The notes beneath the pieces are model-generated. The model saw nothing but the letters and a program-made list of their open reading frames with translations, was not told the DNA's origin and ran no database searches. Both the position numbers and the translations under genes were made by a program. Shown here piece after piece: positions 3,935-50,690 of a DNA stretch of 64,000 nt; position 1 is the stretch's first letter; the number at the start of each line of letters is the position of its first letter. The DNA lies in the NCBI RefSeq assembly GCF_002362255.1, contig NZ_LPVV01000007.1, forward strand, positions 1 through 64,000. The letters run 5' to 3'. The DNA is from Microbacterium sp. SZ1. GTDB lineage: Bacteria; Actinomycetota; Actinomycetes; Actinomycetales; Microbacteriaceae.

Positions 3935-5115
3935 GCGGACACCTCCTCGATGCTCTCGATCGCCGCACGCAGCCGCGCGGCGCCCTGCTCGGGCGTCACC
4001 TCGGCGGCCCACGCCCACATCGCCGCCTCGGAGCCGGCGAGGAACTTGAGCTTGTCGGCCGCCCGACGCGGACTCGTCAGCTGCAGGTGCAGACGCACGG
4101 ACTCACGGCCGGTGTGCACCGGAGCCTGATGCCAGGCGGCGATGTACGGGGTGGGCGAGTCGTAGAGCGCGTCGACGCCGCGGAGCAGCCGCAGATACAT
4201 CGGCGCGAGCTCGTCGCGCTGCTCGGGCGTCGTGGCGGCGAAGTCGGGCACGTGCTGGTGCGGCACGAGATGCACCTCGAGCGGCCAGCGCGCCGCGAAC
4301 GGGACGAAGGCGGTCCAGTGCTCGCCGCGCAGGACGACCCGCTCGGACTCGCGCTCGAAGGCGAGAATGCGGTCGAAGAGGTCGGGAGCGGTGCGGTCGA
4401 TCGTCTCGAGCAGGCGGGTCGTGCGCGGGGTCACATACGGGTACGCGTAGATCTGGCCGTGCGGGTGCGGCAGCGTCACGCCGATCGCCTCGCCGCGGTT
4501 CTCGAACGGGAACACCTGCTCCACGCCGGGCAGCGCCGACAGTGCGGCGGTGCGGTCGGCCCAGGCCTCGATCACGGTGCGGGCTCGCGTGACGGTCTGC
4601 GTGCCGAACGAGCCGGTGTGCTCGGGGCTGAAGCACACGACCTCGCATCGACCGACCGACGTGCGGGTGCGGCCGAGGCCGAGCGCGTCGAGGTCGTCGA
4701 GTCCGCGCGGCGGGTTGCTCGCGGCCGGTGCGGCGCCGACGGCCTCCGCGAGGGCGGGACCGAACGCCGGGGAGCGGTTCTCGAAGACCGCGACGTCGTA
4801 GCGCGAGGGCACCTCGGAGGGATTGGTGGGCGTCTGGGGTGCCAGCGGGTCGGCGTCGGCGCCCGGCATCATCACGCGGTTCTGCCGGTTGGCGGCGACA
4901 GTGATCCAGTCGCCCGTGAGCACGTCGAGGCGCATCGTCGCCGTGTCGCCGCGGGTATCGAGCGCGCGTGCGTCGATCGCGCGCTCCGGTCCGAGCTCGG
5001 TATCGGGATCGTCGAAGTAGATGAGCTCTCGACCGTCGGAGAGCGTGGTGGAGCGCTTCACGACACCGGCGGTCAGGGGCTCGGTTCGCAGGTCGGCGAC
5101 AGAGGGCGTGTTCAC
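3931..5115 (-). CDS. galT: galactose-1-phosphate uridylyltransferase GalT
   Basis: Transfers UMP from UDP-glucose to galactose 1-phosphate. The catalytic His-Pro-His is at residues 217-219 (LPHPHGQIYAYP). The product from the GTG at 5115 is 394 residues. That GTG is preferred over an in-frame ATG at 5154: a TTGACG / 18 bp / TACCAT promoter places the transcription start at or next to the GTG, so the mRNA is probably leaderless, and the ATG would lie upstream of the transcript. First gene of galTKE, divergent from a LacI-family gene; two operator-like palindromes cover the promoter and start. Confidence 0.9.
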
Positions 5116-44898: not shown

Positions 44899-45675
44899 TC
44901 AGACGCTGAGGTCGGCGCGGGGTTCCATGACGATGCCCTGCGCCTCGAACGCGCGGCGGCGCTCCTCGATGCGGCGGTGCAGCTCCACCTGCGCCTCCTC
45001 GATGAGCGTGGGGTCGAGGTCCACCATCGCCGGGTGCGCATCCCCATGGTTCGACGCGATGTACGCGTCGAGCTCAGGCCCCGACGTCCATGACGTGATG
45101 AGCGCGAAGCGCGGAGCTGTGCCCCGATGCCAGACGGCGTGCCAGAAGCGCTGCGTGTCGACGATGATCCGCGAGCCCGCGGGTAGCGGCAGCCGGATCT
45201 CGGTTGCCGGGTCGAAGCGGTCGGAGCGGAGCAGCAGCAGCGAGTCGGGGTCGTCGGTGAGGTTGTAGTACCCCCGCACGACCCATCCGGTGCCGTCCTC
45301 GTTGAGGCGGTTGTTGTCGTCCTGGTGCAGGTTGTACACGGCATCCGCGTACGTGTTGGGCTGCAGCTCGATGACGCGGCAGCGTCCGACCCCGGCGCCC
45401 GGCTCGAGCGCGCGTGCCTGCAGGGTCGGCGCGATCGCCACCTGTGACGGCACCCACACGCCGTCCTTGTCGGTGCGGGGAGGGGTGTGGTTCCAGAACC
45501 CGTTGCACTCGATGTCGCCGGCGTAGCTCGCGAGCGGGGCGAACCGCGTGATGCCCGACGAGCGCCAGCCGATGTACTGCAGGTCGAGCCATTCGGCGGG
45601 GTCGGACGCCTGGTCGTGATCGTCGAGGACCACGTATCCGGTCTCGGCGAGAGCCTCCGACGTGATGAAAGCCAT
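44899..45675 (-). CDS. putative Fe(II)/2-oxoglutarate-type oxygenase, iron-box controlled
   Basis: A 258-residue soluble protein without a recognised name. It shows a likely two-histidine-one-carboxylate iron site: H117-Q-D119 (VYNLHQDDNN) and H179 (DTQRFWHAVWHRG), followed by R185/R189, the layout of double-stranded beta-helix dioxygenases. The surrounding pattern VVRGYYNLTDDPDSLLLLRSD ... GSRIIVDTQRFWHAVWH fits such a fold. The ATG at 45675 follows GGGAGGG; a GTG three codons upstream is possible. A DtxR/IdeR-like box overlaps its promoter, so it should be made mainly under iron limitation, suggesting a role in iron acquisition or siderophore-type metabolism (inference). Monocistronic. Confidence 0.7.
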   Translation of the reverse strand: MAFITSEALAETGYVVLDDHDQASDPAEWLDLQYIGWRSSGITRFAPLASYAGDIECNGFWNHTPPRTDKDGVWVPSQVAIAPTLQARALEPGAGVGRCRVIELQPNTYADAVYNLHQDDNNRLNEDGTGWVVRGYYNLTDDPDSLLLLRSDRFDPATEIRLPLPAGSRIIVDTQRFWHAVWHRGTAPRFALITSWTSGPELDAYIASNHGDAHPAMVDLDPTLIEEAQVELHRRIEERRRAFEAQGIVMEPRADLSV

Positions 45676-45692
45676 GGTGCGCACCCTCCCGT

Positions 45693-45706
45693 TTAGGCAA
45701 TCCTAA
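45693..45706 (-). promoter_or_regulatory. DtxR/IdeR-type iron box
   Basis: TTAGG-CAAT-CCTAA, a perfect inverted repeat; on the minus strand TTAGGATTGCCTAAAC matches 13 of the first 16 bases of the consensus I recall for DtxR/IdeR sites. It contains TAGGAT, a usable -10 box, so a bound repressor would block the promoter of the gene at 44899. Confidence 0.7.
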
Positions 45707-45770
45707 CCAGGATGCCGCGGCGATGCCGGGACCCCCGGACCGGACAAAACCGCCCGGGGCCCGTCGTCGT

Positions 45771-46357: not shown

Positions 46358-47362
46358 TCAGACTGTATTGCGTACAACGACGTGATGGTCCGCGATCTCG
46401 GCCGTCGGCCCCTCCTGCTCGCCGGCGATCCTGGCGAGCAGGAGCTCCACCGAGCGGGCGGCGACCCAGCCGAGGCCGGAGTCCACGGTCGTAAGGGCCG
46501 GGGTCGAGAAGGTCGCCTCCTCGACGTTGTCGAAGCCGATGACCGCCACGTCGCCGGGAACGGCGATGCCCTGAGCCTGGAGGGCGCTGAGCGCGCCCAG
46601 CGCCAGGGCGTCGTTCAGCCCGAAAACGGCATCAAACTCGACACCGGCGGCGATGAGATTCTCGATCGTGGAGGCCCCGGAGGCTCGAGTCCAGGGGATG
46701 GGCCCCGAGAGCAGATCGGGGTCGACCGCGAGCCCGTGTTCCCGGAGCGCAGCGCGAAAGCCGCGTGATCGCAGCGAAGCGGCGGCCGGCGCCTCGGTGT
46801 TCTCGGCGCCGAGTCCGACGATCCGTCGTCTGCCGGATGCGATCAGATACGCGGTCGCGTCATACGCGCCGCGTTCGTTGTCGACCGTGACGAAGTCGAA
46901 GCGGCGTGAATCGGCGCGGTCGCCGACCAGGACGATGGGGACGTCTGCGGTCGCCGCGGCGATGTCGTCGGCCCCGAGCGCGAGGGGGCCGAAGATGAAG
47001 CCGTCCACGGATCGGCCCTTCCCTCCGCTGAGGACGTCGAGCTCCTGAGCGCGGTCGCCGCCGGTGACCTCGACGAGCACGTTCACGCCTCGCAGCTGAG
47101 CGGCCGCGACGACCGCCTGTGCGAACTCGGAGAAGTACGGATGCGCGAGCTCGGGGATCGCCAGCCCGATCGCTCCGGTGCGCCCTGAGCTGAGGTTGCG
47201 GGCCGAGATGTTCATCTTGTAGTTGAGCTGGTGCACGGCATCCGCGATCCGCGCCTTCGTCTCCTCGCGCAGATAGCGGTACCCGTTGAAGTAGTTGGAG
47301 ACGGTCTTTTTCGACACGCCGGCGAGGCGGGCGACATCTGCCATCGTCGGCGAGCTGTTCAT
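46358..47362 (-). CDS. LacI-family transcriptional regulator of the glycan island
   Basis: A 334-residue LacI/GalR protein: HTH TMADVARLAGVSKKTVSNYFNGYRYLREETKARIADAVHQLNYKMNISARNLSSGRT, then sensor domain ending VIGFDNVEEATFSTPALTTVD. The start ATG 47362 is close to the HTH as usual. It is divergent from the GH127 gene; two palindromes of the TAGTACA...TGTACTA type between them are its evident operators. It probably represses the island until an oligosaccharide signal arrives. Confidence 0.9.
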   Translation of the reverse strand: MNSSPTMADVARLAGVSKKTVSNYFNGYRYLREETKARIADAVHQLNYKMNISARNLSSGRTGAIGLAIPELAHPYFSEFAQAVVAAAQLRGVNVLVEVTGGDRAQELDVLSGGKGRSVDGFIFGPLALGADDIAAATADVPIVLVGDRADSRRFDFVTVDNERGAYDATAYLIASGRRRIVGLGAENTEAPAAASLRSRGFRAALREHGLAVDPDLLSGPIPWTRASGASTIENLIAAGVEFDAVFGLNDALALGALSALQAQGIAVPGDVAVIGFDNVEEATFSTPALTTVDSGLGWVAARSVELLLARIAGEQEGPTAEIADHHVVVRNTV

Positions 47363-47387
47363 GGATTCAACTTTCTGCGGAAGCCTG

Positions 47388-47439
47388 TTGCGAGTCTAGT
47401 ACATCGGTGTACTATCCCTTTTAGTGCACCGGTGTACTA
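47388..47439 (+). promoter_or_regulatory. GH127 operon promoter with two LacI operators
   Basis: -35 TTGCGA (47388-47393), 16 bp, -10 TACTAT (47410-47415). Operator one TAGTACATCGGTGTACTA (47397-47414) fills the spacer and -10; operator two TAGTGCACCGGTGTACTA (47422-47439) starts at the expected transcription start. Each is an 18-bp near-perfect palindrome with one mismatched pair; centres are 25 bp apart. Confidence 0.75.
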
Positions 47440-47477
47440 CCGGGATCGCGACTTCCATCAGCTCAACGAGGAGAACC

Positions 47478-49349
47478 ATGGTCAGCGTCTCTGACTCGCT
47501 CGTCACCCCTGCGGCACCGGCACGTGCCACTGCCCTTCGCCCCGTGGATCTTCGTCGGGTGCGGCTCGACGGAGGCTTCCTCGGCGACTGGCAGCGCGTC
47601 AATCGCGAGGGCACGATCCCTCACGTGATCGAGCGTCTCGAGTCGTCTGGTGTGATCGACAACCTCCGCCGCCTCGTGGGGGAGAGCGACGCGGAGTTCC
47701 GCGGTCCGCTGTTCGCCGATTCCGACCTCTACAAGACGCTCGAGGCCATCGGCTGGGAAGCGACGCGCGGCGACGTCAGCGCGTTCCTTCCCTTCGTGGA
47801 CGACGCTGTACGCCTGCTCGCGGCCGTGCAGGAGGAGGACGGCTATCTCGACAGCTACTACCAGGGCCCGCACGCAGGAAAGCGTTTCACGGATCTGGCC
47901 CAGGGGCATGAGATGTACAAGCTCGGCCACCTCATCCAGGCGGCAGTCGCCTGGGCGCACGCCGGGCGCACGGATCTTCTGGAGATCTCCCTCCGCTATG
48001 TCGAGCTCGTGCACTCGACCTTCGGCGCCGGAGGGCGGGACGACATCGACGGCCACCCGGAGATCGAGACGGCGCTCGTGGAGCTCTCCCGCCTGACCGG
48101 CGACGACAGGCATCGTCAGCTGGCCAAGCGGATGCTGGATCTCCGCGGCTATCGCACGATCGGCGAGGGGCAGTTCGGCGGCGCGTATTACCAGGACTAC
48201 ACGCCGGTGAAGGAATCCCGCGAGGCCACCGGTCACGCCGTCCGCCAGCTCTACCTGCTGGCCGGAGCGGCGGACGTCGAACTCGATGAGGCGGATGCCG
48301 GATACCGGGAGTCGCTGGACGCCCTGTGGACGAGCGTGCATGAGCACAAGATGTACGTCACGGGCGGGCTCGGTTCCCGTCACCGCGGGGAATCATTCGG
48401 CGATCCGTACGAGCTGCCCGCCGACCGCGCCTATTCCGAGACCTGCGCGGCGATCGCCAACCTGCACTGGAATTGGCGGATGCTGCTGCTCGACGGGGGC
48501 GCGCGATACGCCGACGAGATCGAGCGCGGCCTCTATAACGCGATCGCCGTCTCGACATCGGTGGACGGGAAGTCGTATTTCTACTCCAACCCGCTGCAGC
48601 TGCGATCGGGCCACACCCACGAGGAGGACGCACCGTCGACCCGACTCGACTGGTACTTCTGCGCGTGCTGCCCGCCCAACCTCGCCCGGCTGCTGTCCTC
48701 GATCACCGGCTACCTGCTCACGGAGACGGACGAGGCAGTGCAGTTCCATGTGTATGCGCCCGGAAGGTATGAAATCGAAGACGGGATCACCGCGACGGTC
48801 GCCACGACCTATCCTTGGGATGAGATCATCGAGATCGCCTTCGATGAGCCGACTGTGCGCGAGACGCACCTCCATGTACCCGCCTGGGCGAAGGGCGCGA
48901 CCCTCGCGGTAGACGGCGCCGAGCCGCATCCGGTCGAGAGCGGCTATGTTCGCGTCCCCGCCGGCGTGCGCTCGCTGACGCTGACGATCCCGGTCGAGCC
49001 CGTGTTCGAGAAAGCACACCCCTGGGTCGATGGGGTGCGCGGAACGCTCGCGCTGCGCCGAGGCCCCGTCTACTACTGCATCGAGGAAGCCGATCTCGCT
49101 GACGGCATCCGACTCGAAGACGTCGTCATCCCGGCTGCGCCTGTCGCGCGAGAGGCCGGTCGCGACGAGGCTCTAGGAGCCCCCGTCCTGACGATCGAGG
49201 ACGGCCGACGACGGGCGGCAGCGGGCGACCTGTACGCATCCGCTTCCGCGGGCGACACCACTGAGCTCGGCGACGTCCGAGCGATCCCCTACTTCCGGTG
49301 GGCGAACCGTGCCCCCGGGGCCATGCGTGTGTGGGTGCCGACGGTCTGA
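47478..49349 (+). CDS. glycoside hydrolase family 127 protein (beta-L-arabinofuranosidase-type)
   Basis: Predicted retaining glycosidase of 623 residues with no signal peptide, so it acts on imported oligosaccharides. The GH127 zinc-thiolate site is visible: E321 and C323 in YSETCAAIANLHWNWRM and C397-C398 in DWYFCACCPPNLARLL, corresponding to the Glu, Cys and Cys-Cys residues of the characterised family member HypBA1; the second cysteine region gives the nucleophile. N-terminal alpha/alpha barrel to about 410, then beta-sandwich. The ATG at 47478 follows AACGAGGAG; an earlier GTG lies in the operators. Exact sugar may differ, as GH127 has mostly unproven members. Confidence 0.9.
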   Translation: MVSVSDSLVTPAAPARATALRPVDLRRVRLDGGFLGDWQRVNREGTIPHVIERLESSGVIDNLRRLVGESDAEFRGPLFADSDLYKTLEAIGWEATRGDVSAFLPFVDDAVRLLAAVQEEDGYLDSYYQGPHAGKRFTDLAQGHEMYKLGHLIQAAVAWAHAGRTDLLEISLRYVELVHSTFGAGGRDDIDGHPEIETALVELSRLTGDDRHRQLAKRMLDLRGYRTIGEGQFGGAYYQDYTPVKESREATGHAVRQLYLLAGAADVELDEADAGYRESLDALWTSVHEHKMYVTGGLGSRHRGESFGDPYELPADRAYSETCAAIANLHWNWRMLLLDGGARYADEIERGLYNAIAVSTSVDGKSYFYSNPLQLRSGHTHEEDAPSTRLDWYFCACCPPNLARLLSSITGYLLTETDEAVQFHVYAPGRYEIEDGITATVATTYPWDEIIEIAFDEPTVRETHLHVPAWAKGATLAVDGAEPHPVESGYVRVPAGVRSLTLTIPVEPVFEKAHPWVDGVRGTLALRRGPVYYCIEEADLADGIRLEDVVIPAAPVAREAGRDEALGAPVLTIEDGRRRAAAGDLYASASAGDTTELGDVRAIPYFRWANRAPGAMRVWVPTV

Positions 49350-49406
49350 CACTTCCCACGCGGCCGGTCATCGGCCACCCTTCACCATAGAGAGAGGAAC
49401 CACGCA

Positions 49407-50690
49407 ATGAGGCGTCACATCAAGCCTTTCATCGCCCTGGCCGCAGTGTCGGCCTTGGGCATCAGCCTGGCCGGCTGCTCGACTACCGGATCGGGCGGCT
49501 CCGACGACGGAGGCGGCACCGTCACCATGTGGGTGCGCGACTCGCAGTCGCGGTTCATGCAACAGCTCGCCGACGCGTTCAACGAGAGCCACGACACGCA
49601 GGTCGAGATCACCCTGATCACCTCGGGTGACTACGTCCAGAAGTTCGGAACCGCCGCAGCAGGCGGGGATGCTCCCGACATCGCTTCGCTCGACCTCGTC
49701 TACGTGCCGTATTTCGCCTCGGTCGGGGCGCTCAGTGACATCAGCGATCAGTGGAACAGCCTCGACTACAAGGACGACATGAGTCCGGGGCATGTCGCTC
49801 AGGGCGTCTACGAGGGCGGCGTGTACTCGGTGCCGTTCACGGCAGACGTGTCGGCGATGTTCTACAACAAGGACCTCTTCCGTGCGGCGGGTCTCGACCC
49901 CGAGGCGCCGCCGACCACGATGGAGGAAGTCAAGGCCGCCGCGACCGCGATCACCGCGACCGGTGACGGCAACTACGGCTTCGCCTTCTCCGGTGCCTGC
50001 GGCGGGTGCAACATCTTCTCGATGGGCCCGTACGTGTGGGCGCAAGACGGCGACGTGCTCTCGGAGGACGGCATCGACGCGAAGTTCGACAGCCCGGAGG
50101 TCACCTCGACCCTGGAGCTGTACCGCGACATGTGGGATTCCGGCGCGATGCCTGCCCTCGTGCAGTCGGACGGCGGGTCGAACGCCGGTGACGCCTTCAA
50201 CCAGGGCAAGGTCGGTATCTATAACTGGGGCACCTTCTTCCTCAGCTCGCTCGAAGAGGAGGCGACGTTCGACTGGGGCGTCGCTCCGATCCCGGGCGCC
50301 GAGGACGGGAAGATCGGGTCTTTCGCGGGCGGTGACAACCTCACCATCCCGTCAGGCGCCAAGAACCCAGACGGCGCCTGGGAGTTCCTGGAGTGGGCGA
50401 CCGGCGAGGACGCACAGGCCGTGATCGCCGAGAACGGCGTCATGCCGACGCGACTCGACCTGCTGGAGGACCTCTACATCTCGCAGGACCCGCGGTTCCA
50501 GGTGTTCGCGGACGCTCTCGAGGTCGGGCGAGTGCCCTACAGCGTGATCGAGAACGAGATCATCAACGACCCGAACGGCGTCTGGTCGACCATGATCCAG
50601 GAATCCGTCTTCGGTCCGGGCTCAGTCTCCGACGCCCAGAAGAAGGCACAGGAGGCCGCGCAGGCGCTCCTCGACGACGCCAACAGCTGA
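49407..50690 (+). CDS. carbohydrate ABC transporter substrate-binding lipoprotein
   Basis: A 427-residue family 1 solute-binding protein (MalE/UgpB type). Signal with lipobox SLAGC (Cys23) anchors it outside. The mature N-terminus GGTVTMWVRDSQSRFMQQLADAFNESHDTQVEITLITSGDYVQKFGTAAAGGDAPDIASLDLVYVPYFASVGALSDIS is typical, as are DWGVAPIPGAEDGKIGSFAGGDNLTIPSGAKNPDGAWEFLEWATG near the C-terminus. ATG at 49407 follows GAGAGGAACC. With the next two permeases it forms an oligosaccharide importer; the ATPase (probably a shared MsiK-type) is elsewhere. Confidence 0.92.
   Translation: MRRHIKPFIALAAVSALGISLAGCSTTGSGGSDDGGGTVTMWVRDSQSRFMQQLADAFNESHDTQVEITLITSGDYVQKFGTAAAGGDAPDIASLDLVYVPYFASVGALSDISDQWNSLDYKDDMSPGHVAQGVYEGGVYSVPFTADVSAMFYNKDLFRAAGLDPEAPPTTMEEVKAAATAITATGDGNYGFAFSGACGGCNIFSMGPYVWAQDGDVLSEDGIDAKFDSPEVTSTLELYRDMWDSGAMPALVQSDGGSNAGDAFNQGKVGIYNWGTFFLSSLEEEATFDWGVAPIPGAEDGKIGSFAGGDNLTIPSGAKNPDGAWEFLEWATGEDAQAVIAENGVMPTRLDLLEDLYISQDPRFQVFADALEVGRVPYSVIENEIINDPNGVWSTMIQESVFGPGSVSDAQKKAQEAAQALLDDANS

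Follow-up and report, generated by a model that had tools for sequence, protein, structure and literature searches.

A putative Fe(II)/2-oxoglutarate oxygenase behind a candidate IdeR/DtxR box in Microbacterium sp. SZ1, and its possible role in iron scavenging

The window analysed here, a stretch of 64,000 nucleotides from Microbacterium sp. SZ1, carries on its minus strand a gene whose product very probably belongs to the Fe(II)/2-oxoglutarate (2OG) oxygenases, preceded by a putative operator of the IdeR/DtxR type. Residue numbers count from the ATG, and the clade label is that of the family tree described below. The features of the locus are:

44899 to 45675, minus strand: putative oxygenase gene, clade A; ATG at 45675, 258 aa, stop codon at 44899-44901
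45676 to 45684, minus strand: in-frame extension to a GTG at 45684, the less likely start, at which the Shine-Dalgarno-like sequence begins
45684 to 45690, minus strand: Shine-Dalgarno-like GGGAGGG, read from the sequence
45693 to 45706, minus strand: iron box TTAGGATTGCCTAA (gene strand), a putative IdeR/DtxR operator
45700 to 45705, minus strand: TAGGAT, a -10-like hexamer within the box, read from the sequence
45319 to 45327, minus strand: codons of H117, Q118 and D119, the HxD of a putative iron triad
45139 to 45141, minus strand: codon of H179, the third putative iron ligand
45109 to 45111, minus strand: codon of R189, a putative 2OG ligand

The open frame can be read from GTG 45684; in most relatives the start codon matches the position of ATG 45675, which is the better start because GGGAGGG lies 8 nt upstream of it. 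The gene-strand leader reads GGTTAGGATTGCCTAAACGGGAGGGTGCGCACCATG, in which a perfect TTAGG-N4-CCTAA box ends 17 nt upstream of the ATG and covers TAGGAT. The first-pass annotation had described a single gene under this box, and the oxygenase gene does stand alone: a cyd cluster, with Pfam-assigned cydA and cydB followed by ABC transporter genes, is transcribed towards it, and the opposite flank holds tRNA-Ser(CGA), a LacI-type regulator, a GH127 gene and a solute-binding protein. That flank (46358-50690), with its regulator, GH127 beta-L-arabinofuranosidase and sugar-binding protein by the tRNA-Ser, bears no relation to the iron finding. The neighbourhoods of relatives revealed no constant gene neighbour or operon partner and none pointing to siderophores; some A relatives adjoin apparent molybdopterin genes, others a lactate/malate dehydrogenase. 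A subclade (L014, L087, L088 and L093) has its A gene directly behind another gene, with no recognisable box; in L087 the preceding gene is a lactate/malate dehydrogenase by Pfam.

Searches with the window protein gave a single Pfam match at E ≤ 1, unrelated (E 0.62), no NCBIfam match at E ≤ 1, one unrelated match among PDB sequences (E 0.49) and nothing useful in PHROGs; at that threshold neither the Pfam nor the NCBIfam models of 2OG-FeII oxygenases matched. A profile of 45 relatives found nothing useful among PDB sequences, and no member scanned across the wider family reached the curated cut-off of a Pfam model or matched an NCBIfam model. The Asp/Arg (and Pro) hydroxylase model PF05118, which has no match to the window protein at E ≤ 1, weakly matched 17 of the 45 relatives' rows (best E 0.0072). 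Conservation was more informative. We aligned 109 Microbacteriaceae-like rows (104 distinct proteins, the window protein and near-copies included) and 15 distant ones, giving 124 readable rows, outside which stand L154 (no frame called) and L162 (misframed, a single gap row). H117, D119, D120, N121, N122, R123, R134, H179 and R189 are invariant in 124/124, and position 183 is H in 112 rows, Q in 10 and N in 2. Fe(II)/2OG oxygenases carry an HxD/E...H iron triad and, about ten residues past its last His, an Arg for 2OG. In sequence terms, the putative triad and R189 supply both.

An AlphaFold2 model built from 45 sequences (pLDDT 79.1, pTM 0.80) places H179 inside a strand predicted for residues 178-182, while R189 opens the next one (189-197), as expected of this fold. 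Foldseek matched the predicted double-stranded beta-helix to 113 PDB chains at E ≤ 0.001, and all but one of the 50 listed are named as enzymes of the 2OG type, the exception being 8jms, for which the title states no function. L-proline cis-4-hydroxylase occupied ranks 1 and 2 (4p7w at E 1.4e-5, the second at E 2.3e-5), followed by SnoN, proline 3-hydroxylase, PHD2, AlkB and FTO, with AspH at rank 26. Structural alignment with VIA-align likewise gave Z scores of 13.0, 12.7 and 12.5 for the proline hydroxylases 1e5r, 4p7x and 4p7w; a Burkholderia 2OG oxygenase scored 12.5, PHD2 at most 12.1 and AspH 11.7. As the best folds lie less than 1 Z from PHD2, the fold names no substrate and only the class is secure. 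The first-pass annotation had suggested a structure-based search for phytanoyl-CoA-dioxygenase-like folds; the nearest solved folds to the model are instead those of L-proline cis-3/cis-4-hydroxylases and PHD/AspH-type enzymes. The PhyH model (PF05721) has no match to the window protein, and its only match in the genome at E ≤ 0.001 lies elsewhere, at C4:269336. The same annotation had numbered the H117/D119/H179 triad correctly from ATG 45675, and its proposal of an Fe(II)/2OG-type active site is borne out by the invariant residues, R189 included, together with the predicted fold. Overall, sequence and model indicate that the window protein is very probably an Fe(II)/2OG oxygenase, from which we infer 2OG dependence and catalysis.

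The family spans several Actinomycetota families. Among 58 genomes searched, 25 match it, one only at E 8e-4; across 35 genomes of the genus, that of SZ1 included, clade A occurs in 13, a second type, B, in 23, and both in 12. B proteins are 59-66% identical to A, and in the tree A and B fall into distinct clades with support of 100/100 and 98/98. Of 396 genomes screened across the phylum, 19 have a match, 3 being from the genus and 16 from other classes. At the 17 distant Actinomycetota loci, with 45-51% identity, we found no upstream box with fewer than three mismatches, upstream distance being counted from the start of the match and not from a proven start codon; the 15 readable distant relatives keep the active-site residues. 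Since these relatives have no such box, the enzyme's original function may have had nothing to do with iron uptake, and from sequence an older actinobacterial enzyme seems to have been brought under iron control in Microbacteriaceae. When genome contigs were scanned, the best 80 of 387 relatives were retained, none of those 80 coming from bacteria outside the phylum, and searches of plasmids, phages and viral contigs gave no family member; at the level of predicted viral folds, matches were phage and giant-virus 2OG oxygenases, unnamed proteins and plant-virus polyproteins. Searches of an open-licence library turned up no paper on the family, which does not prove its absence from print.

The box itself, TTAGGCAATCCTAA at 45693-45706, is the sole match in the window at two or fewer mismatches, a count made uninformative by a shuffle mean of 1.66. 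The 3.45 Mb genome has 3 perfect matches to the pattern versus 0 to the reversed pattern, and with one mismatch allowed there are 13 true-pattern sites versus 19 reversed ones. Such counts alone prove nothing, so conservation and location must decide. For conservation we drew on 71 A-type loci (L002-L014, L032-L088 and L093), of which 69 have enough upstream sequence (the contigs of L005 and L047 end upstream), affording 65 distinct leaders. The box is perfect in 41 of these, has one mismatch in 12, two in 4 and three or more in 8, such that 53/65 carry it at no more than one mismatch, compared with 0.09% of dinucleotide-shuffled leaders. Among A relatives it lies anywhere between 13 and 50 nt from the ATG, meaning that the box has been retained while its surroundings drift. 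Boxes at this threshold also precede paralogue B within the genus (14/16 leaders) and other Microbacteriaceae-like genes (13/22), seven of the latter having three or more mismatches (L096, L098-L100, L102, L104 and L107).

The hexamer TAGGAT within the box (45705-45700, gene strand) fits TAnnnT, the -10 consensus. Five A loci, L056, L070, L071, L077 and L081, have lost the box and retained both the gene and TAnnnT at the -10 position, which agrees with the earlier description of a perfect box lying over a -10 hexamer. A promoter scan that also required a -35 hexamer reported no promoter at the box. TAGGAT within the dyad is a plausible -10 element.

The company of the box includes several iron genes: when one mismatch is allowed, 6 of the 13 genomic sites lie before such genes and 2 belong to the two oxygenase paralogues. 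One site lies 18 nt upstream of a DtxR/IdeR gene and one 10 nt upstream of a heme oxygenase gene (PF01126); two stand at SIP genes (PF04954), one of these two sites being shared with a Peripla_BP_2 and FecCD pair; two further ones accompany other Peripla_BP_2 genes, and two precede an Nramp gene near an MntR-like gene. Three sites have no evident iron link, being associated with trpD-like/cytochrome c genes, a solute-binding protein and a GntR/FCD regulator. The first of these, a perfect TTAGG-N4-CCTAA at C38:326578-326591 of the SZ1 genome (G000; locus L129) between a trpD-like (glycosyltransferase-3-family) gene and a cytochrome c gene region, possibly reflects iron control of respiration, or chance. 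Fifteen of the 19 reversed-pattern sites fall inside predicted coding sequence, and none of the 19 adjoins relatives of the boxed iron genes, a comparison that is partly circular because the list of iron genes was drawn from the 13 true-pattern sites. The iron control proposed in the first-pass annotation accords with a box common to the DtxR/IdeR, heme oxygenase, SIP and Peripla_BP_2 genes.

Which repressor would read the box can be judged from its sequence. The genome holds two PF02742 genes. The first, assigned to DtxR/IdeR, has its own box and matches PF01325 and, below threshold, the DtxR SH3 model. The second is MntR-like with a FeoA-type end, and lies near the Nramp gene (G000 C10:27985-30082, L136). 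The two similar boxes upstream of that Nramp gene would favour a reading in which the MntR-like repressor acts on the oxygenase box too and the gene answers to manganese, not iron. However, each Nramp-gene box has one TTCGG/CCGAA half and A/T flanks, whereas the oxygenase box has a GG flank, as at the SIP and Peripla_BP_2 boxes; on this basis IdeR is the likelier reader. Moreover, plus-strand positions 45693-45707 share 14 of 15 bases with the start of the DtxR site of Corynebacterium glutamicum cg3404, TTAGGCTATCCTAAC, a gene for which a relative expression of 364 by real-time RT-PCR is given in the same source (PMC1382209). Control by manganese is consequently improbable, and IdeR is the likelier, if not certain, repressor. 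A longer DtxR dyad pattern, AGGNNAGNCTNNCCT, has 3 sites in the genome versus 1 for its reverse. One of these, on contig C41, is TTAGGATAGCCTTGCCTAA (L138, about 4090-4108), at the start codon of a Peripla_BP_2 gene that also has a short box further upstream; TTAGGATAGCCTTGCCTAA is a near-match to the 19-bp DtxR consensus, TTAGGTTAG(G/C)CTAACCTAA (PMC1382209). Overall, an upstream operator common to known iron genes and a repressor encoded in the same genome suggest membership of an IdeR/DtxR regulon, with IdeR binding and derepression at low iron as the expected behaviour.

The SZ1 genome encodes a second member of the family, paralogue B (C38:141059-141802, minus strand; L137 and L161), which is 61% identical to the window oxygenase and has its own iron box, TTAGGCTTGCCTTA. 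The first-pass annotation had called the window gene a good lead; the iron-boxed oxygenase is real but not unique. Paralogue B and its Microbacteriaceae orthologues share a covarying leader hairpin shortly after the box position (L161:2266-2330, minus strand), with five stem pairs, a mismatch, two more pairs and a conserved UGU-N-AAAAC...GC loop. It was evaluated by five measures on an alignment of 35 leaders (28 distinct; A2), with L092, L093 and L097 left out owing to their differing leader layout. Pairing holds in 94.3% of cells, versus 84.3% in shuffles and 36-55% when the alignment is slid by one to three columns, and 19 cells are changed on both sides versus 7.0 (0/500 shuffles as high). 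Two of the measures were not outstanding: pairs with a change on both sides (3 versus 2.3; 219/500 shuffles as high) and further pair types (12 versus 10.4; 93/500). The SZ1 leader itself folds only moderately better than shuffles (z -1.59, 12/200).

A search of 38 genomes with the hairpin model, R1, gave 17 best matches (E ≤ 1.1e-4), one each before B in 17 B-bearing genomes; within the genus this agreement is partly by construction, as 15 of the 35 model leaders come from it. All eight weaker matches inspected lie in genomes without the oxygenase family, and no Rfam family matched the leader of any locus tested. Hairpin and box are separable elements, since seven leaders have the former and not the latter. 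As a feature of the window gene the hairpin was rejected: R1 found no leader match in a set of 37 loci that included 35 of type A, and three A leaders fold no better than shuffles.

Many relatives of the window gene share their promoter region with a divergent gene of 348-350 aa, found in 27 of 58 A-type loci among the best 80 of 387 contig relatives, or 28 by clustering (for example L046:4884-5927, minus strand, and 26 further loci). Its product has no Pfam match; among PDB folds the model of this product (pLDDT 80.4) best matches 3rpd (Foldseek E 2.0e-9), with MetE next. Price et al. named 3rpd MesD, a protein that needs MesX and O2 (PMC7857596), and a pairing with an oxygenase is of interest because MesD needs an O2-dependent partner in MesX. 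The divergent gene occurs in 8/13 A-bearing versus 2/22 A-less genomes of the genus (p 0.0017, ignoring shared descent). One could therefore suppose that in relatives the oxygenase serves this MetE-like protein, making a methyl donor with O2. However, the divergent gene has no match in the SZ1 genome, which argues against the pairing as the main function of the oxygenase; nor does it lie beside paralogue B or in non-A family loci among those best 80, and the window oxygenase is not a DUF1852 protein by Pfam. We regard this explanation as very unlikely.

That a bacterium short of iron should invest iron in an oxygenase calls for an explanation. We propose that the window gene encodes a soluble Fe(II)/2OG oxygenase of the L-proline cis-hydroxylase/AspH fold class and that, with plentiful Fe(II), IdeR/DtxR would sit on the -10 region and repress it. 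Iron shortage would release the repressor and turn the gene on, and the enzyme would then hydroxylate or otherwise oxidise a small iron chelator, imported or cell-bound, such as a foreign siderophore. This oxidation would form part of a scavenging programme in a genome in which the two commonest routes to an own siderophore were not found. We put the probability that the enzyme oxidises a small iron chelator during iron scavenging at roughly 0.4; the iron chelator as substrate class is a guess, and salvage of foreign siderophores is possible. The genome does hold boxed uptake genes, a boxed heme oxygenase and boxed SIP genes. A more ambitious version, in which an undescribed Fe(II)/2OG family with two IdeR-wired Microbacterium paralogues processes foreign chelates for actinobacteria that make no siderophore, one paralogue being also under a new gene-specific 5' leader hairpin, is decidedly doubtful.

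Two other readings accept iron control and differ on the substrate. The first-pass annotation had pointed to siderophore tailoring or salvage; for tailoring, an iron box and an oxygenase fold would be apt. As a role in making the bacterium's own siderophore this fails for the two commonest routes: neither the NIS synthetase model PF04183 (IucA/IucC) nor the NRPS condensation model PF00668 has a match in the SZ1 genome, and 11 of the 13 A-bearing genomes have no PF04183 (it occurs in 2, and 2 have one weak PF00668 match each, at E 4.2e-9 and 4.6e-8). Tailoring of an endogenous siderophore is, in our estimate, the least likely of the explanations considered. The genus is mixed: PMC7438953 mentions Microbacterium isolates that grow only with desferrioxamine B, which speaks for the scavenging reading, and also reports that 41% of the tested isolates were CAS-positive and that six genomes had desferrioxamine-like clusters, so that the genus is not siderophore-free, which counts against that reading. 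The other reading is that the oxygenase does an ordinary job on an amino acid, a metabolite or a protein residue, and that IdeR control in Microbacteriaceae offsets poor iron loading of the enzyme. The 15 readable distant relatives with an intact active site, the absence of an iron box at the 17 distant loci, neighbourhoods unrelated to iron, and the A loci that lost the box and kept the gene would all suit such an enzyme. Less readily accommodated are the boxes at the two paralogues in Microbacterium and in 13 of the 22 leaders from other Microbacteriaceae-like loci, and the frequent placement of the same box at iron-uptake genes in the same genome. Compensation of this kind is somewhat unlikely in itself and ranks close behind chelator oxidation, which we retain as the preferred reading.

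Comparison with known systems places the window oxygenase between several precedents. L-proline cis-3/cis-4-hydroxylases (1e5r, 4p7w and 4p7x) are its top predicted-fold matches and also carry an HxD...H triad. In contrast, identity in the fold alignments is 10-14%, the window protein has no PF05118 match, and we found no description of these hydroxylases as iron-repressed. The MesD/MesX methionine synthase pair resembles the arrangement in many relatives, where a MetE-like core-synthase fold is encoded beside a putative oxygenase; it differs in that the oxygenase has no PF08908 (DUF1852) match and the SZ1 genome no match to the partner. With the DtxR/IdeR regulon of C. glutamicum the box shares the TTAGG/CCTAA halves of the 19-bp consensus, but the window box is a short 14-nt dyad with a 4-nt centre, and the word "dioxygenase" is absent from the main text of PMC1382209.

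The nearest functional precedent, by analogy, is CciO with its relatives PiuC and YbiX. As presented in PMC12004947, these are iron-repressed Fe(II)/2OG oxygenases, of which CciO is Fur-regulated and has an unknown substrate; in Caulobacter the transporter CciT depends on CciO to function. Like them, the window gene appears to place a 2OG-type oxygenase under an iron repressor; unlike them, it has a DtxR-type and not a Fur box, no transporter neighbour and an actinobacterial host. The same source describes the proteobacterial paradox of spending iron under iron shortage as unsolved and links homologues of the partner transporter to cefiderocol resistance (PMC12004947). A DtxR-boxed, Pfam-invisible counterpart in environmental actinobacteria would offer a tractable and independent setting in which to approach the same paradox.
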